Of a DNA stretch of 48,267 nucleotides, positions 1 to 13,602 are shown in pieces. The notes below the pieces were generated by a model, which saw nothing but the letters and a program-made list of their open reading frames with translations, made no database searches and had not been told where the DNA came from. The stretch is from Mycobacterium sp. GTDB taxonomy: Bacteria; Actinomycetota; Actinomycetes; Mycobacteriales; Mycobacteriaceae. Position 1 is the stretch's first letter. Each line of letters starts with the position of its first letter. Location of the stretch: contig JAOPVX010000125.1 of the NCBI GenBank assembly GCA_025965975.1, positions 1 through 48,267 on the forward strand, given 5' to 3'. The position numbers and the translations under genes were made by a program.

Positions 1-6
1 CGATCT

Positions 7-166
7 ATGAGCGCTCGCGCGAAGAGCCGAGAACAGCGATGAGCGCTCGCGCGAAGAGCCGAGAACAGCGATGAGCGCTCGCGCGAAGAGCCGAGAACAG
101 CGATGAGCGCTCGCGCGAAGAGCCGAGCGCAGCGATGAGCGCTCGCGCGAAGAGCAACGAGCCGCG
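7..166 (+). repeat. Five tandem 32-bp units encoding overlapping mini-ORFs
   Basis: Units begin at 7, 39, 71, 103 and 135, an exact 32-bp period. Each starts ATGAGCGCT and reads as an 11-codon ORF whose TGA overlaps the next ATG by four bases (ATGA). The peptides are MSARAKSREQR three times, MSARAKSRAQR and MSARAKSNEPR. The last mini-ORF stops in the GTGA at 167-170, which is also the start of the CoA-transferase gene. The first ATGA (7-10) probably holds the stop of an upstream gene outside the window. The layout resembles mycobacterial MIRU elements, where small ORFs overlap at their ends. Whether the peptides are made is unknown. Confidence 0.9.
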
Positions 167-1357
167 GTGACAGAGCCTTTCAACAGGTCCGGGTTCGCCG
201 CTGCACTACGGGCTCAACTGCGGCCGGGCATGACGGTTGCGCTCGGTGACGGCGTCGGCGCATTGCGATGTCTCGATGACGGCACATCGGTTGGGGCGGT
301 CGTCTCGGCGGTCGCCCGCGACGTCGGTTCGGTGCGGCTGGTACTGGGCTGGGTACCCACCTCGCTCGACGGGGTCGAGGCCGACGCCTTCGCCGAGATC
401 GTCGCGTTGATGCCGGGTTGGGGCGTGCGGAAGGTGTTGCTCAGCCCGACAGCACGTTTCGTGCCGACCCGGCTCAGCGGAATACCCCCGCTGCTGACCG
501 GGGTGCTGCGTCCCGACGTGCTCGTCACCCGGGTCGCCGAACGGGGCGGCCGACTGCATTTCGGCACCGAGGTCTCCTGGCAGCGCGGACTCGTCGACGC
601 CGGCGTGCCGGTGCTCGCCGTCCTCGACGACACCTCGCCGTGCGCCGATGCGGGTCCGCCGCTGGATCCCGGCGTCGTGCAGGTTTCCGGTCGCAGCAGC
701 GAGGGACCGGCGTGCATGCCGCAGAAGGACCCCGAACCCGTCCACGACGCGCTCGCCGACGCGGTGCTGCGGTTCGTGCCCGAGGGCGCGCGACTGCAGT
801 ACGGGCCCGGGCAACTCGGCACCGCCCTGCTGCGGCGAACGACGGTACCGCTTCGCATCGACACCGGCTTGCTCACCGACGCCGTGGTCGACATGGACAA
901 ACACGGGATGCTGATCGACATGCCTTCGGCCACTTACCTGTTCGGCACCGAGGAGCTGTATGACTGGGCGGACGGCAAGCCGATACTGCGGGGCATCGAT
1001 TACACCCACGACCTCACCCGGCTTGCTAGCCGCGAGCCGTTCGTCGCGGTCAACACCGCCATCGAGATCGACCCGTTCGGGCAGGTCAACGTCGAAGGCC
1101 GCGGCGAGAAAGTGGTCGGCGGCATCGGCGGGCATCCCGACTACTGCGCGGCGGCCCGGATGAGCCACGGCGGGCTGTCGATCATCGCGGTCCGGTCGAC
1201 GGTCAACGGGCACTCGCCGCTGGTCGACCAGTTGAGCCGGCCGGCGTCCACCCCCGCCCACGACGTCGACCTGATCGTCACCGAGTCCGGCCACGCGGAC
1301 CTGCGCGGCGCGGACTGGTCGCAGCGACGACGCCTCATCACCACACTGTTTCAGTAA
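167..1357 (+). CDS. Acetyl-CoA hydrolase/CoA-transferase family protein
   Basis: This 396-residue protein resembles the acetyl-CoA hydrolase/4-hydroxybutyrate CoA-transferase family, which moves CoA between carboxylic acids or hydrolyses acyl-CoA in the cytoplasm. Family-like stretches are GLLTDAVVDM (about 234-243), VNTAIEIDPFGQVN (295-308) and the glycine-rich GGIGGHPDY (318-326) followed by SHGGLSI. Members are usually nearer 430 residues, so this one is slightly short but has both halves. The GTG start is set by the GTGA overlap with the last mini-ORF of the repeat array, and no other Shine-Dalgarno is obvious. An SDR gene follows 8 nt later, so the two are probably co-transcribed. The acid substrate cannot be read from sequence. 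Confidence 0.8.
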   Translation: MTEPFNRSGFAAALRAQLRPGMTVALGDGVGALRCLDDGTSVGAVVSAVARDVGSVRLVLGWVPTSLDGVEADAFAEIVALMPGWGVRKVLLSPTARFVPTRLSGIPPLLTGVLRPDVLVTRVAERGGRLHFGTEVSWQRGLVDAGVPVLAVLDDTSPCADAGPPLDPGVVQVSGRSSEGPACMPQKDPEPVHDALADAVLRFVPEGARLQYGPGQLGTALLRRTTVPLRIDTGLLTDAVVDMDKHGMLIDMPSATYLFGTEELYDWADGKPILRGIDYTHDLTRLASREPFVAVNTAIEIDPFGQVNVEGRGEKVVGGIGGHPDYCAAARMSHGGLSIIAVRSTVNGHSPLVDQLSRPASTPAHDVDLIVTESGHADLRGADWSQRRRLITTLFQ

Positions 1358-1365
1358 GGAGCGCA

Positions 1366-2277
1366 ATGGCTTCACCACTTTCCGGACGGGTCGTCCTGGT
1401 CACCGGCGGCGGGCGCGGCATCGGGCGCGGCCACTGCCTGGCGCTGTCCGCCCATGGTGCCTCGGTCGTCGTCAACGACCCCGGTGTGAGTCGCGACGGA
1501 ACGGCCGGCGACGGGGCGGGCCCCGCCGCCGACGTGGTCACCGAGATCGAGGCGGCAGGCGGCAAGGCAGTCGCACACACCGGTTCGGTGTCGTCCTGGG
1601 ACGACGTCGGCGACATGATCAAGACGGCGGTCGAGACGTTCGGGACGCTCACGGGCGTGGTGAACAACGCGGGCATCGTTCGTGACTCGATGGTGGCCAC
1701 GTCCACCGAGGCCGACTGGGATGCGGTGATCGCGGTTCACCTCAAGGGCACATTCGCGGTCACCAAGCATGCCTGCGAGTACTGGCGCGCACAGTCGAAG
1801 GCGGCCAATCAGATCGACGCGCGCATCGTGAACACCGTGTCGGGCGCGGGACTGTGGGGCAATGTCGGCCAGAGCGCCTACGGCGCCGCCAAGGCCGCGA
1901 TCGCCAACCTGACCGTCGTCACCGCGATGGAGGCGAGCCGCTACGGGGTTGCGGTGAATGCGATTTCGCCGCTGGCGGTCACCCGGATCAGCGAGGACTT
2001 CTTCAGCGGCGAGAAGTCCGACGACCCTGCGCTTGACCCCGCGCGCAGTTCGCAGGTGGTGGCGTGGCTGCAGTCGCCGGAGTCGTCCTGGCTGACCGGC
2101 CAGATCCTGCGCGTCAACGGGCACACCCTGAGCCGGATCGAGGGCTTCGCCGAAGCGCCAGCCCGCTACCACGCCAAAGACGATGCTTCGCTGCAGTTCT
2201 CCGAGATCGGCCAGGCGGTGAGCTGGCTGTACGGCACATCGCCGCGCGGCCTCGCCGGCCCGTTGCCGACGACCTAG
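1366..2277 (+). CDS. SDR-family oxidoreductase (FabG/HSD17B4-like)
   Basis: A 303-residue classical short-chain dehydrogenase/reductase. It has the NAD(P)-binding TGGGRGIG motif (13-20), NNAG (100-103), a catalytic serine near 159 and YxxxK at Tyr172/Lys176. The insertion after the first beta strand (NDPGVSRDG) is typical of the larger FabG-like or multifunctional-enzyme type 3-hydroxyacyl-CoA dehydrogenases, so oxidation of a 3-hydroxyacyl-CoA is a reasonable inference. AAGGAG at 1356-1361 lies 4 nt before the ATG. The stop overlaps by 4 bp the stop of the convergent VOC gene, leaving no room for an intergenic terminator. Confidence 0.85.
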   Translation: MASPLSGRVVLVTGGGRGIGRGHCLALSAHGASVVVNDPGVSRDGTAGDGAGPAADVVTEIEAAGGKAVAHTGSVSSWDDVGDMIKTAVETFGTLTGVVNNAGIVRDSMVATSTEADWDAVIAVHLKGTFAVTKHACEYWRAQSKAANQIDARIVNTVSGAGLWGNVGQSAYGAAKAAIANLTVVTAMEASRYGVAVNAISPLAVTRISEDFFSGEKSDDPALDPARSSQVVAWLQSPESSWLTGQILRVNGHTLSRIEGFAEAPARYHAKDDASLQFSEIGQAVSWLYGTSPRGLAGPLPTT

Positions 2278-3221
2278 CGGGTGAAGTACTTCAGCGGGCG
2301 TTCGACGAACTCGAAGACCACCCCGTCGGGTGAGCGCAGGAACGCGATGTAGAGGCCCTCGATCTTGGTGCCCGGCAGCGGGCACCAGACCGGATCACCC
2401 ATCACCTCAACGGAATCCGGCACCGCGGCGAGCGCCTTCTCAGTGTCCTCCACCCGCATCGCACACCGGTACAGTCCCTGGTGATTACCACCCCATGGCA
2501 CCGGATCCTGGTGTCGCGTGTCGGGATGCGCCACGACGGTGAGGCTGAACTGATGGGCGTCCTCGGGTACCGCGTATCGCGACACCACGCATTCCACCCC
2601 ATAGGCCGGTCCACCCGGATCCAGCTGGTCGCCGGCGACGTCGACCAGCGTCGGCGGTTGCACCTCGACGAAGCCAATCGCGGTCAGGAACTCCCCGGTC
2701 GCGATGGCATCGATGGCCGCGATACGGACTCCGCCGAACAACGCCCCGCCGGACGCATCTCCGCCAGTAGTCTCCGCGAGTTCGATGACCACGCCGTCGG
2801 GATCGGTCGCCAGCACCGATTTGGTCCCGGAGATCAGACCGTCGACGGGTTCGCCGACCGTGACACCCGCATCGCGCAGTTTGGCGGCGGTGCCGGTGAG
2901 GTCGGCCACGGTCATCAAGGTCGACCGGATGCCGGGGCGTGCCGGATCGCTGCTGGGGTCGCGCTTCAGCGTCGGATTGTGGTACTCGATCGCCTCCAGC
3001 GCACAGCCGCCTCGTCCACCCCGCGAGTCGTAGAGAAACGACGTCTCACAGTAGGTTTCGCCGTCGAGCCCGAGAATTGAACCATTCGTTGCTACTTCGG
3101 GGTCTGTGCGCATCCGCGCGGACAGCCCCAGCTTGCCCGCGTACAGCTCTTCGGTCGCGTCCAGCGATTCGCAGTTCAGGTTGACGTGCAGGAACCGCCG
3201 GGCCAGGTCCTGCGATCCCAC
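2274..3221 (-). CDS. Two-module VOC (glyoxalase/extradiol-dioxygenase superfamily) protein
   Basis: 315 residues with two vicinal-oxygen-chelate modules. The N-terminal one begins RRFLHVNLNCESLDATEELYAG and ends near DPDGVVIELAE. The C-terminal one contains GNHQGLYRCAMRV and ends SPDGVVFEFVERP. The histidines in HVNL and NHQG and the glutamates in VIELAE and VFEFVE are the usual metal-ligand positions. Possible activities include dioxygenase, isomerase or epimerase; none can be chosen here. The GTG start at 3221 shares one base with the upstream CoA-transferase stop (TAGTG), which fits translational coupling. An in-frame reading that continues upstream exists but runs through the CoA-transferase gene in another frame and was not used. 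Confidence 0.8.
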   Translation of the reverse strand: MGSQDLARRFLHVNLNCESLDATEELYAGKLGLSARMRTDPEVATNGSILGLDGETYCETSFLYDSRGGRGGCALEAIEYHNPTLKRDPSSDPARPGIRSTLMTVADLTGTAAKLRDAGVTVGEPVDGLISGTKSVLATDPDGVVIELAETTGGDASGGALFGGVRIAAIDAIATGEFLTAIGFVEVQPPTLVDVAGDQLDPGGPAYGVECVVSRYAVPEDAHQFSLTVVAHPDTRHQDPVPWGGNHQGLYRCAMRVEDTEKALAAVPDSVEVMGDPVWCPLPGTKIEGLYIAFLRSPDGVVFEFVERPLKYFTR

Positions 3222-4432
3222 TACAGCACAACCGAATTGATCTTGAACTCGATGATCTCGTCCTCGCGGTAACCCAGTTCGGCCAGGAGCGCATCGGTGT
3301 GTTCTCCGTGGCCTGGGGCGCAGCTCAGGTCCAGCGGCGTCTCGTCGAACTGCACCGGGCTGGCGGCCAGGGCGAACTCGTTGTTGTTGGCATCCGTAAC
3401 CCGAGGCAGGTATCCATTGGCGATCGCCTGCGGGTCGGCGTGCACCTCGTGTGCGGTGTGCATGACGTCCCACACCCCGTCGAAGCCTTCGAATGCCTTC
3501 TCCCAGTGGGAAAGATCCTCGGATGCGAAGCTGCGGCGCAACTCGGCGATGCACTCCACGCGATTGCCGAAACGCACCGCGGCACTGGCGAACCGCTCGT
3601 CGTCGATCAGATCGGGGCGACCAAGGCGCTTGCAGAAGTCGGCCCAGAACCGGTCGGCCTGCAACAACACGAACGCGATGAACCGGTCGTCGCGGGTCTT
3701 GTAGATGCTGGCCACGGGGTTGGGCATCTCGTCGAGGTTGAACTTCGGAATGTCCTGACCCGTCACGCCCGAGCCAACGATGTCGGGGCCCAATTGCCAG
3801 ATCGCCGCGTTGAGCAGGGAGACGTCCACCACCGACGGCTCGCCGGTGCGCTCCCGCTTCACCAGCGCCGCGGCGATGCCGCCTGCGATCGCCAACCCGC
3901 CGTAGGAGTCGCCGAACGCGGGCCGCTGAATCGGCGGGTACGAACCGTCGCCCGCGGAGTAGGCGTCGCCGATGCCGCCGCGGGCCCAGTACGCCGCGAG
4001 GTCGAAGCCGCCCTGCGACGCCAGGTCGCCCTTGGTGCCGTAGCCGTGCCCGCGGGCATAGATGATCTTGGGGTTGCGCGCGCGCACCTGCTCGACATCG
4101 ATGCCCATCCGCCGGCGCGAATCCGGCAGCAGGTTGGTGACGAACACGTCGGCCGTCTCGAGCAGCTTCATCAGCAGCTCCAGTCCTTCTGGGGTGGAGG
4201 TGTCCAGACCGATGCTGCGCTTGCCGCGGTTGGGCTGTTCGACGAAGTGGTTGACGCCACCGGCACCGGTGACGATGCCCGAGCTGATGAGGCCGCGTTG
4301 GGGATCGCCCGTCTCCGGGTGCTCGATCTTGATGACGTCGGCGCCCCAGTCGGCGAGCACGGCACCGGCTGCGGGCACAAACGTCCACGCCGCCAATTCG
4401 ACGACACGGATGCCGCTGAGGATGTCGGTCAC
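3221..4432 (-). CDS. CaiB/BaiF (class III) CoA-transferase
   Basis: 403 residues, typical for class III CoA-transferases, which move CoA between acids through an aspartyl intermediate. The N-terminal family signature VELAAWTFVPAAGAVLADWG is clear, and the predicted catalytic Asp is D144 in GGFDLAAYWARGG. It starts with GTG in a GTGA overlap with the aldehyde dehydrogenase stop. It is the middle gene of an ALDH, CoA-transferase, VOC operon, so the acid formed by the ALDH could be loaded with CoA here. A paralogue with the same N-terminal signature lies at 39946-41175. Confidence 0.9.
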   Translation of the reverse strand: MTDILSGIRVVELAAWTFVPAAGAVLADWGADVIKIEHPETGDPQRGLISSGIVTGAGGVNHFVEQPNRGKRSIGLDTSTPEGLELLMKLLETADVFVTNLLPDSRRRMGIDVEQVRARNPKIIYARGHGYGTKGDLASQGGFDLAAYWARGGIGDAYSAGDGSYPPIQRPAFGDSYGGLAIAGGIAAALVKRERTGEPSVVDVSLLNAAIWQLGPDIVGSGVTGQDIPKFNLDEMPNPVASIYKTRDDRFIAFVLLQADRFWADFCKRLGRPDLIDDERFASAAVRFGNRVECIAELRRSFASEDLSHWEKAFEGFDGVWDVMHTAHEVHADPQAIANGYLPRVTDANNNEFALAASPVQFDETPLDLSCAPGHGEHTDALLAELGYREDEIIEFKINSVVL

Positions 4433-5922
4433 AGGGGGTAGCCGATCGTCTTGGTCTGCAGGTGCTGCTCGAAGCCCTCGATGCCGTTCTGCCTGCCGAT
4501 ACCGCTCATCTTGTACCCACCGAACGGAGCGTCCGCGCCGTAGTACATGCCGCTGTTGATCATCAGCGAGCCGGTGCGGATGCGGCGGGCGACGGCCATG
4601 GCGCGCTCGTTGCTGCCCATGATTCCGCCGGCCAGGCCGTAAGTGGAGTTGTTCGCCATCTCGACCGCACCGTCGTCGCCGCCGTCGTAGGGCGTGATGG
4701 ACAGCACCGGCCCGAAGACCTCCTCGTGGAAGATCGTGTGGTTCGGTGCGACGTCCGCCACGACGGTCGGTGCCACGAAGTACCCGCGGTCAAGGCCTTC
4801 GGGCACACCGCCGCCGACGGTGACGCGGCCGCCGTCGCGCTTGGCGATCTCGATGTAGTTCAGCACGCGGTCCCGCTGCTTCGCGGACACCAGCGGCCCG
4901 CAGAAGGTGTTCGGGTCGGCCGGGTTACCCACGCTGAGGGCGCCGAATGTCGCCGTCGCGACCTCGACGGCCTTGTCGTAGTGCGAGCGCGGTACCAGCA
5001 TCCGAGTGGCCAGCGCACAGCCCTGACCGGAATGCATCAGCGCGCCGATACAGCCGGGTAGCGCCATGTCCATGTCGGCGTCGTCGAGCAGGAGATATGC
5101 CGACTTGCCGCCGAGCTCGAGCATGTTGCGCTTCATGGTGTCCCCGGACAGCCGCTGGATGAGCTTGCCGACCGCCGTCGAACCGGTGAACGAGACCATG
5201 TCGGTCCGCGGATCGGTGGCGAGTACCTGGGCGATGTCGTTGTTCGACGTTGGGACGATGTTGACGACGCCCGCGGGGATGTCGGTCTTCTCGGCGATGA
5301 TCCGGCCCCACCGCAGCGCGCTCCATGGGGTCTCGATGGCCGGCTTGAGCACCATCGTGTTTCCGGTGGCTAGGATCTGGCCCATCTTGTTGCTGATGAT
5401 CTCGAACGGGAAGTTCCACGGCGTGATCGCCCCAACGACACCCATGGGTTCCTTGACCACGACGCGGTTGTACGGGACGCCCATCTTGGCGTCCTGGTCG
5501 AGCATCCGCTCCCATGGGAACGTCGAGATCAGCTCCGCGGGGTACCGGATGGCGTCGGCCAGCGGCCACTCCAGCTGCGCGATGTAGGTCATCCCCACCG
5601 TCGCACCGACTTCGGCGATCAGCTCGGCGCGGATTTGTTCTTTTTCCTCCTGCAGCGCGTTGTGTAACTGTTCCAGGCAGTGCTGGCGGTAGTCGTGGTT
5701 GGTCGACCAGTCGGTGGTGTCGAAGGCACGCCGGGCGGCGGCGATCGCCTCCTCCATGTCCTCGGCACTGGCGTCGGTGGCGACCCCGAGCACTTCTTCG
5801 GTGGCGGGGTTGATGTTGTCGGCGGTCTGGCCGGTCGACGACGCGCGCAGCAGGCCGTCGATGTAAAGGCGGGATTCGGGGTTGAATGAAACGGTGGTTG
5901 GGGCGAGCGGTGATGCCGTCAT
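4429..5922 (-). CDS. NAD(P)-dependent aldehyde dehydrogenase
   Basis: 497 residues, normal ALDH-superfamily length, oxidising an aldehyde to a carboxylate in the cytoplasm. Key residues are present: Asn170 in TPWNFPFE, Lys193 in VLKPA, the FTGST nucleotide loop (245-249), general-base Glu269 in LELGGK and nucleophile Cys302 in SGQGC. The C-terminal PFGGYKMSGIGR motif is intact. It is the first gene of the minus-strand operon and is divergent from the acyl-CoA dehydrogenase at 6036, so both depend on the 113-bp region between them. Confidence 0.93.
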   Translation of the reverse strand: MTASPLAPTTVSFNPESRLYIDGLLRASSTGQTADNINPATEEVLGVATDASAEDMEEAIAAARRAFDTTDWSTNHDYRQHCLEQLHNALQEEKEQIRAELIAEVGATVGMTYIAQLEWPLADAIRYPAELISTFPWERMLDQDAKMGVPYNRVVVKEPMGVVGAITPWNFPFEIISNKMGQILATGNTMVLKPAIETPWSALRWGRIIAEKTDIPAGVVNIVPTSNNDIAQVLATDPRTDMVSFTGSTAVGKLIQRLSGDTMKRNMLELGGKSAYLLLDDADMDMALPGCIGALMHSGQGCALATRMLVPRSHYDKAVEVATATFGALSVGNPADPNTFCGPLVSAKQRDRVLNYIEIAKRDGGRVTVGGGVPEGLDRGYFVAPTVVADVAPNHTIFHEEVFGPVLSITPYDGGDDGAVEMANNSTYGLAGGIMGSNERAMAVARRIRTGSLMINSGMYYGADAPFGGYKMSGIGRQNGIEGFEQHLQTKTIGYPL

Positions 5923-5969
5923 TGGCGCTCCCTCTGGCTAAATTGTCGTCGTGGGTTAGTGTACCTGGT

Positions 5970-5984
5970 ATAGATAATTGTTTA
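5970..5984 (+). promoter_or_regulatory. ATAG box 1, candidate operator or extended -10
   Basis: ATAGATAATTGTTTA lies in the divergent region between the ALDH and the acyl-CoA dehydrogenase operon. It matches the pattern ATAGTTA-NNT-GATTT also found at 9572, 14913 and 19770, each upstream of a plus-strand operon. The ATAG part could belong to a -10 element. The shared 3' half suggests a protein site as well. Confidence 0.4.
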
Positions 5985-6035
5985 GCGGATTCCCTCGGGC
6001 CAGCGGAATCCTCCGAACGACGAAAGGGGTGCCTG

Positions 6036-7292
6036 TTGTCAGCCCCTGTCGACGACGCCGTGAACGCTAGCCGCCGGCGCGAATACGTGTCGCAGATCGC
6101 GACATACCGCGAGGATTTCCGGCGCTATCTGCGCGACCTGGACTGGGCCGACGAGTGGCGCAACGCGTCCTTTGACAACACCGAGGACGAGCTGGCGTAC
6201 CACGCCGTCGTGCTGTCCCGCATGTATGAGGCCGGGTGGAACCGCTACGGCTGGCCGGAGCAGGCAGGCGGCTTCGGAGGAACCGAGATTCACCGGGCGG
6301 TGTATTTCGAGGAACTCGCCGCGGCGATGCTGCCGGTGCCAGAGCAGCACTGGACACTCGAGGTGCTCGGACCGGCCGTCATCAAGTACGCGCCCGAACT
6401 CGCCGAACGATATCTGCCCAACTACATGCGCGGTGACGAGTGGTGGGGGCAGTGCTTCTCCGAGCCGGAATCAGGCAGCGACCTGGCAGCGCTGCGTTGC
6501 CGCGCCGTTGACGACGGCGCAGGCGGGTTCGTCCTCAACGGGCAGAAGATCTGGACCAGCCAGGGTCCCACCGCGACGAGGTTTCTTGCCCTGGTCCGTA
6601 CCGGCACCCCGGAAAGCCGTCACCGGGGCTTGAGCACACTCCTGGTTGACGCCGACAGCCCCGGCGTGACGGTGCGACCGATCGCGCTCGCCAGCGGTCG
6701 TCGCGAGTTGGCCGAGGTGTTCTTCGACGACGTCCGCGTGCCGCGGGAACGGCTGATCGGCGACGCCGACGGGGGCTGGGCCGTCGTGATGCACCTGATG
6801 CAGTACGAGCGCGGGATGTACGGCTACGCCACGCTGACGAAGGCGCTGACCGAGCTGAGCTGGCTGCGCGAAGAGATGGCCGTGCACGGTTCGTCTTCTG
6901 CCGGTAGGCACCGCTTCGCCCAGATCTACGTTGCGGTGCTGGCCGCGCAGGCGCGTGCCGCGACCACGGTCCGTGCGCTCGCGGACGGCCGGGCGGTCGG
7001 TCCGAACAGCAGCGTCGACAAGTTGCTGTTCGCGAAGGCCGAGAAGGACATCAACGATCTCATCCTTGACACCCGACGCGACTGGATGATCACCGGAGCC
7101 GCTCCGGCGGCGACATCCAGCTCCGGGGTGGGCGGCGGCGGCAGTGGGGTGGGCGGCAGCAGCAAGGAACTCGATGCCGTCCGGGCGAAGTGGTGGTACA
7201 CCCGCGCCGCGACGATCATGGGCGGCAGTGCCGAGGTCCAGCGCGGCATCATCGCCGACCATCTGCTGGGGCTGCCCAAGGAAAAGAGATGA
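6036..7292 (+). CDS. Acyl-CoA dehydrogenase (FadE-like), large subunit type
   Basis: 418 residues of the acyl-CoA dehydrogenase fold, an FAD enzyme that introduces the alpha-beta double bond into an acyl-CoA. Family segments include CFSEPESGSDLAAL, LNGQKIWTSQGP, VFFDDVRVPRERLIG and the C-terminal TIMGGSAEVQRGII. TTG at 6036 is chosen because GAAAGGGG (6022-6029) is well spaced before it and the alignable sequence begins here. An unusual Gly/Ser-rich insertion sits at about residues 356-378. The stop lies in the ATGA that begins a two-unit mini-ORF repeat leading into a shorter partner gene. Together the genes resemble the heteromeric FadE pairs of sterol side-chain degradation. Confidence 0.88.
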   Translation: MSAPVDDAVNASRRREYVSQIATYREDFRRYLRDLDWADEWRNASFDNTEDELAYHAVVLSRMYEAGWNRYGWPEQAGGFGGTEIHRAVYFEELAAAMLPVPEQHWTLEVLGPAVIKYAPELAERYLPNYMRGDEWWGQCFSEPESGSDLAALRCRAVDDGAGGFVLNGQKIWTSQGPTATRFLALVRTGTPESRHRGLSTLLVDADSPGVTVRPIALASGRRELAEVFFDDVRVPRERLIGDADGGWAVVMHLMQYERGMYGYATLTKALTELSWLREEMAVHGSSSAGRHRFAQIYVAVLAAQARAATTVRALADGRAVGPNSSVDKLLFAKAEKDINDLILDTRRDWMITGAAPAATSSSGVGGGGSGVGGSSKELDAVRAKWWYTRAATIMGGSAEVQRGIIADHLLGLPKEKR

Positions 7293-7352
7293 GCGCTTGC
7301 GCGAAGAGCAGAGGGCCAAGATGAGCGCTTGCGCGAAGAGCAGAGGGCCAAG
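7289..7352 (+). repeat. Two tandem 32-bp units with overlapping mini-ORFs
   Basis: Two identical units begin at 7289 and 7321 and read MSACAKSRGPR with ATGA stop-start overlaps. The first ATGA carries the stop of the upstream acyl-CoA dehydrogenase. The last provides ATG 7353 of the next gene, which itself begins ATGAGCGCC. The unit is clearly related to the array at 7-166 (shared ATGAGCGCT, then GCGCGAAGAGC) but diverges after position 21. It forms a termination-reinitiation chain between the two presumed subunits. Confidence 0.88.
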
Positions 7353-8348
7353 ATGAGCGCCGCAGTGACCGATGAATCGTGGCCGATGGTCGAAGAGGCC
7401 GTCTTCAGGTTGTTCGACCAGATCGCGGGCAAGGGAGCAGACGAGCACACCGCGGTCGGTCCGCCCCTCGCCGATCTCGGTTGGTCGGACATCGAGGCGG
7501 AGTATCCGATAGAGGCGTGCGAGTTGCTCTTTCGCGCCCAGGGCCGCTCGCTGGCGCAGACGGACTGCCTCAGCACGGTGATGCTGGCCGAGTTGAGCCC
7601 GCTGCTGGACGGCCCCGTCGACGGCATCGTGCTGCCCGCAACCGCCGACGGCTATGCGCCGGGGTCCGACGCGCAACGGGTCGCCGGAATAGTGTTGGGG
7701 CCGTTGCCCAGTGCCGGGCGACTCGCCGTCCCGGTATCGGGTCCGATGGCCACGGTATCGCTTGGCGTCGTCGACGCCGACCGGCTGCTCGGCGAAAGGC
7801 TCGACACCTTCGACCCGACCGTGTTCTGGACCCGAGTGAGCGGACCGTTGGTCGGCGACCTCACCGATGCGTCGACCGAATGGGGCCGCGCCATCGCGGC
7901 CGCGCACCGCGCCCTGGCGACGGAACTGGTCGCGCTGGCCGACGAGGCACTGCGCATCGCCGTCGAGCACGTCCGCGTCCGCGTCCAATTCGGTTCTCCC
8001 ATCGGCTCATTCCAGTCACCTCGGCACCTACTGGCTGACGCATCGGCGACCCTGGAAGGCGCCCGCGCACTGCTGGACGAGACATGGCGTTACGGCGGAA
8101 GTCTCTCGGCGATGACCGCGAAGGCAGCCGCAGGCCGCGCCCACCGGGCCATATCGGACGCCGCGCTACAGGTGTGCGGCGCCATCGGACTGACCGCCGA
8201 ACACGATCTCCATCGATACGTCACCCGCGGCTTCCAGATCGACTCGCTCTGTGGATCACATCATCAGCTCGAGGCACTGCTTGCCGAGCGGCTGTTCGAG
8301 ATCTACGCGCCCGGCCGCGCGCTGCCCTCGATCGTCACCTGGGGCTGA
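7353..8348 (+). CDS. Acyl-CoA dehydrogenase-like protein, short partner subunit
   Basis: 331 residues with a weakly conserved N-terminal half and a recognisable C-terminal helical domain: EHVRVRVQFGSPIGSFQSPRHL and CGAIGLTAEHDLHRY. Usual length is about 380, and the middle FAD/substrate motifs of the large subunit (SEPxxGSD, NGxKxW) are missing. This fits the small subunit of an alpha2beta2 FadE such as ChsE1-ChsE2. ATG 7353 is chosen because it directly follows the mini-ORF repeats; a longer in-frame start would lie inside the repeat. The next gene starts 14 nt downstream. Confidence 0.82.
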   Translation: MSAAVTDESWPMVEEAVFRLFDQIAGKGADEHTAVGPPLADLGWSDIEAEYPIEACELLFRAQGRSLAQTDCLSTVMLAELSPLLDGPVDGIVLPATADGYAPGSDAQRVAGIVLGPLPSAGRLAVPVSGPMATVSLGVVDADRLLGERLDTFDPTVFWTRVSGPLVGDLTDASTEWGRAIAAAHRALATELVALADEALRIAVEHVRVRVQFGSPIGSFQSPRHLLADASATLEGARALLDETWRYGGSLSAMTAKAAAGRAHRAISDAALQVCGAIGLTAEHDLHRYVTRGFQIDSLCGSHHQLEALLAERLFEIYAPGRALPSIVTWG

Positions 8349-12441: not shown

Positions 12442-13602
12442 TCAGTTCTTCTCGTTGCAGAGAATGGTGACCGCTGAGACAGCGGTCGGCCCACCAATGT
12501 TGTGCGCCAACGCGACTCGGGCACCGTCGACCTGGTTCTCGGCTTGGCCGCGAAGCTGATTGAACAGTTCGTAGCACTGCGCCACGCCGGTAGCGCCTGG
12601 CGGGTGTCCTTTCGCCTTGAGACCACCGCTGGGATTGACGGGCATCGACCCGCCGACATAGTGTTCGCGGCCCTCGACGAGCTTGTAGGCCTCGAACCGG
12701 TTGGCGAAGCCGAGGTCCTCGTAGCTGATGAGTTCGACACCGGTGAAGCAATCGTGGACCTCGGCGACGTCGATGTCGCGAGGCGTCAATCCCGCCATTT
12801 TCATCGCCGCCTTGGCCGCACGCACGGTCGGCGGGAAGGTCGTCATGTCCTGCTTGTGCTGGTGCATCACGCGATCCATGCCGAGCCCCACGCCACGCAC
12901 CCAGACCGGCCGATCGGTGTACCGGTCGACGACGTCTTCGGACGCCAGGATCACCGCAGCGGCGCCATCGCTCTGCGGGGTGCAGTCGTAGAGCCCGAAC
13001 GGTTCGACCACTATCGGCGCCGCCAGTGCCTGCTCGACGGTGATCTCATAGCGAAGTTGGGCTTTCGGGTTGTTGACGGCGTGAAAATGGTTCTTCACCG
13101 CCACCATCGCCATGTGTTCCTTGGTCGCAGGCGACTCGTGCAGGTACCGGATGACGTGTAGCGCGAAGTTCGCCGGCGCGACCAGCCCCAGCGGGTAGTC
13201 CCATGCGTTGTCCCTGGTCATCGCCGCCCAGTCCCAGAACGTGGTGTTCGACGACGTCTCGCGCACCTTGTCGGCGCCGACCACCAGCACCACGTCGTAG
13301 AGGCCAGACGCGATAGCTATCGTTCCGTTGCGGATCGCGTCATTGCCGGTGGCACAGGCATTCTCGACGCGCGTGACGGGAATGTCGGTGAGGTCGAGGG
13401 TGTCGGCCAGGATGCCCGACGGGAATCCGTCCGTCGTGGACAGCTCGCCGAACCAGGCCGCCTCGATCTCGGCCTTCTCGATGCCCTTGTCCACGTTGGC
13501 AACCGCCTCGGCGTACGCCATCGGCACCAGGTCCTTGATGCCGAGCTCGAAGTGTTCGGCGAAGGGCGTCATCCCGGCGCCGACCATGGCGACGTTTCTC
13601 AT
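12442..13602 (-). CDS. SCP2-type thiolase / lipid-transfer-like protein
   Basis: 386 residues of the SCP2 (non-specific lipid-transfer) thiolase family, which performs thiolytic or retro-aldol cleavage in sterol and acyl-CoA catabolism. Cys83 in ENACATGNDAI is the expected nucleophile. EVHDCFTGVELI (281-292), GGLKAKGHPPGATG (326-339) and HNIGG (368-371) complete the active site. No SCP2 lipid-binding domain is fused. The start overlaps the stop of the OB-fold fusion gene (ATGA), the usual arrangement for a DUF35 partner of Ltp-type thiolases or aldolases. Confidence 0.9.
   Translation of the reverse strand: MRNVAMVGAGMTPFAEHFELGIKDLVPMAYAEAVANVDKGIEKAEIEAAWFGELSTTDGFPSGILADTLDLTDIPVTRVENACATGNDAIRNGTIAIASGLYDVVLVVGADKVRETSSNTTFWDWAAMTRDNAWDYPLGLVAPANFALHVIRYLHESPATKEHMAMVAVKNHFHAVNNPKAQLRYEITVEQALAAPIVVEPFGLYDCTPQSDGAAAVILASEDVVDRYTDRPVWVRGVGLGMDRVMHQHKQDMTTFPPTVRAAKAAMKMAGLTPRDIDVAEVHDCFTGVELISYEDLGFANRFEAYKLVEGREHYVGGSMPVNPSGGLKAKGHPPGATGVAQCYELFNQLRGQAENQVDGARVALAHNIGGPTAVSAVTILCNEKN

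Follow-up and report, generated by a model that had tools for sequence, protein, structure and literature searches.

Why does a mycobacterial contig open with a run of five 11-codon reading frames, each with its stop codon overlapping the start of the next, directly in front of a CoA-transferase gene? The initial annotation of the window (the whole analysed stretch of 48,267 nt) had described such a chain, with a 32-bp period and ATGA overlaps, and the unit coordinates, the translations and TRF (period 32, 4.7 copies, 98% matches, score 284) confirm it. The five 32-bp units of window 7-166 start at 7, 39, 71, 103 and 135 and read ATG-AGC-GCT-CGC-GCG-AAG-AGC followed by 11 bases; each translates into MSARAKS plus four residues, and the stops (40-42, 72-74, 104-106, 136-138 and 168-170) each overlap the following ATG, or in the last case GTG 167. 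That the array leads into a CoA-transferase gene at GTG 167 is borne out by a match to the C-terminal domain of the acetyl-CoA hydrolase/transferase family; our gene caller, a simple purpose-written codon-usage program applied throughout the analysis and fallible as to starts, placed the start of this gene at 230.

A scan of the window with the 19-base core, allowing up to 3 mismatches, gave 7 matches against 0.18 expected from shuffles. A second array of the same unit, absent from the earlier description, has two copies (7289-7352) and joins two acyl-CoA-dehydrogenase-type genes (Table 1), the downstream one being weakly IpdE2-like with a score far under that model's cut-off. The window starts at base 1 of contig C169, and since this contig begins inside the first array, five is the minimum copy number there. 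The first six bases, CGATCT, resemble what we take to be the end of an Illumina adapter; the other contig ends inspected were without CGATCT.

Table 1. Features at the two arrays, in window positions.
Position	Strand	Feature	Basis
1..6		CGATCT, contig's first six bases, probably leftover sequencing adapter	sequence; resemblance to an adapter end
7..38	+	unit 1, mini-ORF MSARAKSREQR*, stop 40-42	sequence, translation
39..70	+	unit 2; proposed hairpin (bases -3..20) = 36-59	hairpin register inferred from covariation
71..102	+	unit 3	sequence
103..134	+	unit 4, MSARAKSRAQR*	sequence, translation
135..166	+	unit 5, MSARAKSNEPR*	sequence, translation
167..1357	+	acetyl-CoA hydrolase/transferase family gene; GTG start overlaps stop 168-170	C-terminal domain match
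6060..7292	+	acyl-CoA dehydrogenase gene; own TGA 7290-7292 is the TGA of the second array's first unit	domain match, sequence
7289..7320	+	second array unit 1, MSACAKSRGPR*	sequence, TRF
7321..7352	+	second array unit 2	sequence, TRF
7353..8348	+	acyl-CoA-dehydrogenase-type gene; ATG 7353 overlaps last unit's TGA	domain match

Copies of the 32-bp unit are dispersed. Its 21-base core, allowed up to 3 mismatches, is present at 141 places in the own 7.4-Mb assembly, against 3 for the reversed pattern; the own-genome loci analysed below were drawn from about 100 of these places. With at most one mismatch the core is present in 252 of the 396 genus genomes sampled and in 5 of 24 genomes from other families of the order. 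Across the class the exact core was found in 20 of 394 genomes, namely in 18 of the 26 of the genus (own included) and in 2 of the 368 outside it. Carriers among the matches listed (at least 120 stretches) are mostly Mycolicibacterium and Mycobacterium, with a few actinobacterial metagenome bins and one planctomycete bin. The latter, Planctomycetota bin L051, has five core copies inside an 87-89-bp tandem repeat, either by real spread or through a mis-binned contig; L045, labelled Bifidobacterium breve, carries the core and may be mis-binned as well. In five metagenome bins (L014, L027, L043, L056 and L095, the first four known by name as Pseudonocardiales or Frankiales) the core directly follows another repeat (GAGCGAGGAGCGGAGCGAAT...), as if the families were nested.

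The exact core was absent from IMG/VR, and plasmid and phage records gave no match or weak short ones, part of these searches having possibly been hampered by a low-complexity filter. Mycobacterium phage Arissanae (MK468591) has a weak 85% match to the unit at 12614-12645, where two hypothetical genes meet (E 0.2). A search of window 1-8000 against Rfam returned a single weak, unrelated match. Literature searches by core strings and by topic, with subscription papers mostly outside the scope, listed no paper recognisable as a description of the repeat; an 11-base string of it occurred in six papers with unrelated titles, and another core string in none.

Could the arrays be ordinary VNTRs that grew locally from a chance ATGAGC, without any dispersal? 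The spacers are mostly uniform inside one array and differ among loci, as such growth would have it, but the recurrence of one 21-base core at many unrelated loci and in the 252 genomes makes this very improbable. It is moreover contradicted by pairs of filled and empty orthologous junctions, at which single copies occupy sites that are bare in relatives.

At the hisF-hisI junction 8 of 30 loci carry units, and 10 of the 22 unfilled loci are bare CG-ATGA, the remainder having other overlaps or gaps. The single-copy locus L291 has 32 additional bases precisely at CG^ATGA. Five of the filled sites are of the CG type and have first units with GAAGAGC; three (own L290, L299 and L314) are of the TG type and have GAAGAAC, the only empty relative with TG-ATG being L308. 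The junction of the first array is empty in L160 (CG-TTGA) and in L161, L162, L163 and L169 (CG-GTGA), and in three relatives it is occupied: L167 has four units, L164 a single worn unit and L170 a probable remnant of 17 bases. That of the second array is bare with CG in L136, L137 and L138 and bare with other bases in L131-L134; L130 has one unit, and L135 and the window have two each, the flank in the window being AG instead of CG. At a nitronate-monooxygenase junction 5 of 30 loci are filled (L320, L330, L335 and L341, with L323 worn); of the 25 unfilled, seven are bare CG-ATGA, L349 is bare TG-ATG and the rest differ. L297 and L305 at hisF-hisI are perhaps remnants of units, and the probable 17-bp remnants in L170 and L297 have retained a length of 2 mod 3. 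From these comparisons we infer that whole units were added at the stop/start overlap, by insertion rather than loss elsewhere, which would make the filled state the derived one.

The repeat favours gene junctions. From named genomes 114 arrays were counted, on loci of at least 1500 bases and after removal of those within 300 bases of either end. Of these, 84 lie between two genes that share one direction, where random positions would give 6.0; in 46 the unit's TGA itself serves as the stop of the upstream gene, with 0.0 expected. A wider set of 181 arrays comes from loci of at least 600 bases; each array has a best unit with no more than 2 mismatches, and repeated combinations of 25 upstream bases plus unit were dropped. 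In this set 80 arrays overlap an upstream stop, namely 23 of the 58 own arrays and 57 of the 123 from other genomes, and 101 arrays lie off any overlapped stop. Arrays inside a gene number 4 of the 181 in sense and 7 in antisense, or 9 and 4 of the 114 named-genome arrays under another counting rule. Among loci preselected for carrying the element, 47 of 115 element sites are at junctions compared with 16 of 87 background CGATGA sites (p = 7e-4); measured against the supply of CGATGA, junctions are thus used about three times as often as other intergenic sites.

Does the chain of stops and starts hold from one gene to the next, as had been proposed for the first array? The test covered junctions where the upstream stop is overlapped and a start follows downstream; the upstream end of the first array, where the contig begins, lies outside it. 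From the first ATG via stop and overlapping start the chain reaches the next gene at 17 of the 18 junctions in the own genome and at 37 of the 53 elsewhere. When 1-2 random bases were put into the last spacer, the values were 42% and 44%, in-frame read-through included. Among the failures in other genomes the chain breaks in 15, and the remaining one lacks a start codon at its first unit. The distance from the ATG of the last unit to the frame of the next gene is 2 mod 3 in 12 of 18 own and 41 of 53 other cases. The first period, too, is 2 mod 3 in 17 of the 28 own multi-copy arrays and in 26 of the 42 from other genomes. First periods range from 24 to 35, with 32 bp the commonest; in 27 of the 70 multi-copy arrays the first period is 33, 31, 30 or 24, which implies in-frame read-through or a broken chain, and therefore restart at each unit is not the rule. 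The proposed chain is thus kept into the next gene at most tested junctions but is no general property of the repeat, both because of these periods and because of the 101 arrays off an overlapped stop. The tuning of coupling by copy number that the initial annotation suggested is a conjecture.

A conserved peptide was ruled out, the changes at first, second and third codon positions being 91, 56 and 40; what is conserved looks to be the nucleic acid rather than the peptide. We also considered whether the spacers provide strong Shine-Dalgarno sequences. Their mean match to the anti-Shine-Dalgarno sequence is -6.54 kcal/mol versus -5.57 kcal/mol for the upstream flanks (n = 45), a small difference (p = 0.03), and any of four SD-like 4-mers is present in 58 of 181 spacers, so that this role was rejected as weakly supported.

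New in this analysis is a covariation between two bases of the flank, -2 and -3, and bases 19 and 20 of the unit, and it fits the register of a small hairpin (the A of ATG is numbered 0 and flank bases are negative). Among 274 distinct first units -2:19 has the strongest dependence of the columns scanned (C:G 214, T:A 32, T:G 12, G:C 6, others 10); in a wider scan -4 with 21 came second and -3 with 20 third (G:C 176 and C:G 12). The Watson-Crick excess over shuffles amounts to z 14.6 for -2:19 and 6.0 for -3:20, and to 10.0 and 3.2 after rows with flanks at least 10/14 alike had been dropped (274 to 142). Since the 274 rows comprise all loci, including 40 stretches mostly hand-picked as being of non-AGC type, their class sizes are enriched for variants. 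An independent scan open to all four combinations and free of such picking listed 150 places in 20 genomes, several units of one array among them, and a hand count of these gave CG/AGC 100, TG/AAC 41, TG/AGC 8 and CG/AAC 1. The second array of the window, with A at -2, is one of the few unpaired cases.

Bases -2:19 and -3:20 share an antidiagonal with a GCG-CTYG-CGC palindrome and two conserved GA/GA steps, from which we propose a hairpin of bases -3 to 20. In this register, counted as 0, 90.4% of the cells are paired and 25 cells carry both-side changes, where shuffles give 7.2; related sequences can inflate this count. Slid registers reach 26 and 27 both-side cells (at +1 and +2) and a covariation score of 0.140 (at -2); only register 0 unites 90.4% pairing with 25 both-side cells. 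RNAalifold run on the alignment gave another 3-bp register (columns 11-13 with 18-20) with no covarying pair. The RNA minimum has the hairpin shape in 4 of 5 24-base variants but neither in the CGCTC variant nor in the 44-base context, and the DNA minimum has it in 0 of 3 tested; single-strand folding energies were not clearly better than those of shuffles (z -0.8 to +0.9). In view of these folding results the putative hairpin is founded on covariation along one antidiagonal and not on energy. Compensatory changes at 1:16 were discarded as support, the three double changes (L111, L314 and L321) looking like chance matches within coding sequence; such rows are still inside the sets of 274 and 142.

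The covariation suggests that the element chooses its target by base pairing; the alternative reading remains later compensation that keeps the hairpin. Because the flank bases pre-exist in part of the unfilled relatives (CG in the ten hisF-hisI and seven nitronate-monooxygenase loci mentioned above, TG only in L308 and L349), the dependence may link target to element. Pairing at -2:19, wobble included, is 0.98 at junctions (n = 147), 0.95 where there is no same-strand stop nearby (n = 66) and 0.93 where a stop lies 1-60 bases upstream (n = 61), and it falls from 264 of 274 in first units to 141 of 182 in later units of arrays. This near-equality off junctions and the looser pairing in later units favour a role at insertion.

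A different role would be that of an RNA acting in situ, in which the AUG is held in the stem, translation of the upstream gene opens the hairpin, and selection keeps -2:19 and bars a longer stem. Watson-Crick pairing at -4:21 is indeed rarer than expected (23/274 versus 66.0), above all at junctions with -3:20 paired (2 of 110 versus 28.4 expected), and the use of junctions beyond the target supply would fit such a function as well. The avoidance, which a further analysis bore out and which vanishes where -3:20 is unpaired, is however also seen off junctions, if more weakly (with -3:20 paired, 6 of 79 versus 19.0, or 12 versus 21.8 with wobble), and -2:19 pairing persists away from junctions; we regard this explanation as unlikely.

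We consider it probable that the unit represents an insertion element, dispersed and MIRU-like, that goes precisely into overlaps and keeps coupling, with an enzyme that is hypothetical. At the level of sequence comparison this reading builds on the demonstrated dispersion, the clean differences between filled and empty junctions, the frame kept at most tested junctions and the covariation. The core ATGAGCGCTYGCGCGAAGAGC with about 11 spacer bases, together 32 bp, would insert exactly at CG^ATGA or TG^ATG. Since TGA/ATG forms its beginning, a start codon follows directly on its end and its length is 2 mod 3, insertion of the element between overlapping genes would yield stop-restart, mini-ORF, stop-restart; ribosomes would restart at the overlaps and coupling should survive. 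The element would be mobilised in trans by the hypothetical enzyme, reading the hairpin and the paired target. A motif scan of 2180 predicted proteins near copies detected no mobility enzyme, its 1 match being a beta-lactamase-fold protein.

A more specific form of this explanation, rather than its opposite, is a selfish single-stranded DNA hairpin of the REP or IS200/IS605 type, whose 3' foot (19-20) pairs with the flank (-2, -3) and which is moved in trans by an HUH/Y1-type enzyme; coupling would then merely explain why insertions at gene overlaps are tolerated. The strength of the -2:19 pairing, its persistence off junctions and the two types of hisF-hisI sites speak for it, as do the short TY loop and the stop codon given to neighbours, which recall GTAG REPs (PMC3733652). 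Against it stand the lack of a Y1/HUH gene beside copies in the scanned proteins, the 5' tetranucleotide ATGA instead of GTAG/GTGG, the inconsistent folding minima with energies close to those of shuffles, and the chance that bases -2 and -3 are inherited along with two old element subfamilies. We judge it possible, if short of probable. Our tentative proposal along these lines is a non-autonomous 32-bp mobile hairpin with the target encoded in two bases of its 3' foot, GAAGAGC specifying CG^ATGA, GAAGAAC TG^ATG and, in a few cases, GAAGACC GG^ATG; its stem would have to end at -3:20, and it would favour stop/start overlaps and leave coupling intact. If true, such a two-base code could explain the site choice of MIRU-type repeats, whose way of finding start codons is not explained in the MIRU literature drawn on. 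With many natural insertions, orthologous empty sites and a two-base code, the mechanism becomes testable.

The analogy with MIRU, drawn already in the initial annotation for a shorter unit, holds for the logic of stop/start overlap. MIRU units are 46-101 bp long. They were described in 1997 (Supply et al., as cited in PMC12548453), and according to this 2025 review they appear mobile, insert at start codons, have an internal ORF coupled by a -4 nt overlap and probably have little effect on expression (PMC12548453); elsewhere their tandem copies are stated to vary (PMC9392950) and units of 53 and 77 bp are given (PMC4213456). The MIRU of the senX3-regX3 region is confined to M. leprae and the M. 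tuberculosis complex according to one source (PMC4213456), whereas the review speaks of many mycobacteria (PMC12548453). Both repeats are short, mobile-looking and mycobacterial, with an ORF between genes whose ends overlap the stop and start of the neighbours (for the upstream stop in the 80 of 181 arrays here), and a leprae-like genome of 3.3 Mb shows the ATGA-to-ATGA layout between its senX3 and regX3 genes. The present unit differs by its 32 bp (first periods 24-35) versus 53-77 bp and by being widespread in the genus. At this one MIRU-bearing junction in two leprae-like genomes (L249 and L250) the core had no coding-strand match with up to 6 mismatches. The MIRU-like stretch at about 1000-1050 of L249 ends with AGAGGGCACGCGA before ATGA, similar to the spacer end AGAGGGCACCG before ATGA of the 32-bp repeat, by chance or kinship.

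REP sequences are short, high in copy number and mostly intergenic, with a conserved tetranucleotide 5' of a hairpin, a TY-type loop and stop-supplying termini (PMC6006769, PMC3733652). Copy number and position between genes (141 places; 84/114 arrays) agree with the present repeat, and so do the 5' tetranucleotide plus proposed hairpin, the short TY-type loop and the stop-supplying termini of REP with RAYT (TnpA-REP). The foot of the hairpin is however ATGA here and GTAG/GTGG in REP, the core stem is short and extended through conserved G.A steps, and the motif scan showed no RAYT beside the copies. In IS200/IS605 a tetranucleotide guide at the foot of the hairpin interacts with the flanking target (PMC6006769). 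In the present element, too, the target flank complements a putative guide and covaries with it; the element differs in that the proposed guide lies 3' of the hairpin, in its length of 32 bp and in having no transposase gene. Compared with ordinary termination-reinitiation at ATGA/TGATG, the same overlaps serve here as landing sites and are rebuilt, but a mini-cistron or a chain of up to 25 is inserted between the genes. Because the logic is shared with MIRU, while length, sequence and range differ and the motif scan detected no RAYT- or IS200/IS605-type enzyme near the copies, we file the unit as a MIRU-like insertion repeat and not as a member of MIRU or REP; it is like MIRU in logic and not in the one MIRU sequence compared.

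How did the arrays grow? Upstream flank and first spacer end in the same 4 or more bases in 20 of 68 multi-copy arrays, against 3.6 in shuffles, and in 2 of 43 single copies, against 1.5. For 32 arrays that have a downstream start, the first and last spacers could be compared: the flank is closer to the first in 12, closer to the last in 2 and equally close to both in 18. Such likeness is the trace expected from unequal exchange or slippage between two '..CGATGAGC' ends, by which the tandem copies may have arisen. The last spacer of the first array instead repeats the junction of the relative L163 (GAGCCGCGGTGACA), its end GAGCCGCG plus GTGACA being identical to the acyl-CoA-dehydrogenase/CoA-transferase junction of this empty relative. 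Contigs C5, C24 and C169 of G000 end or start inside or beside arrays, and short-read assemblies therefore probably undercount the copies.

The longest array seen (L380, positions 1176-1975; G013 C2:91700-94900) has 25 units of exactly 32 bp, and its 25 consecutive overlapping mini-ORFs form an unbroken chain from an F420-ligase/nitroreductase gene into a NUDIX gene. Chains of up to 25 mini-ORFs offer a natural ladder for asking how many stop-restarts can precede the next gene.
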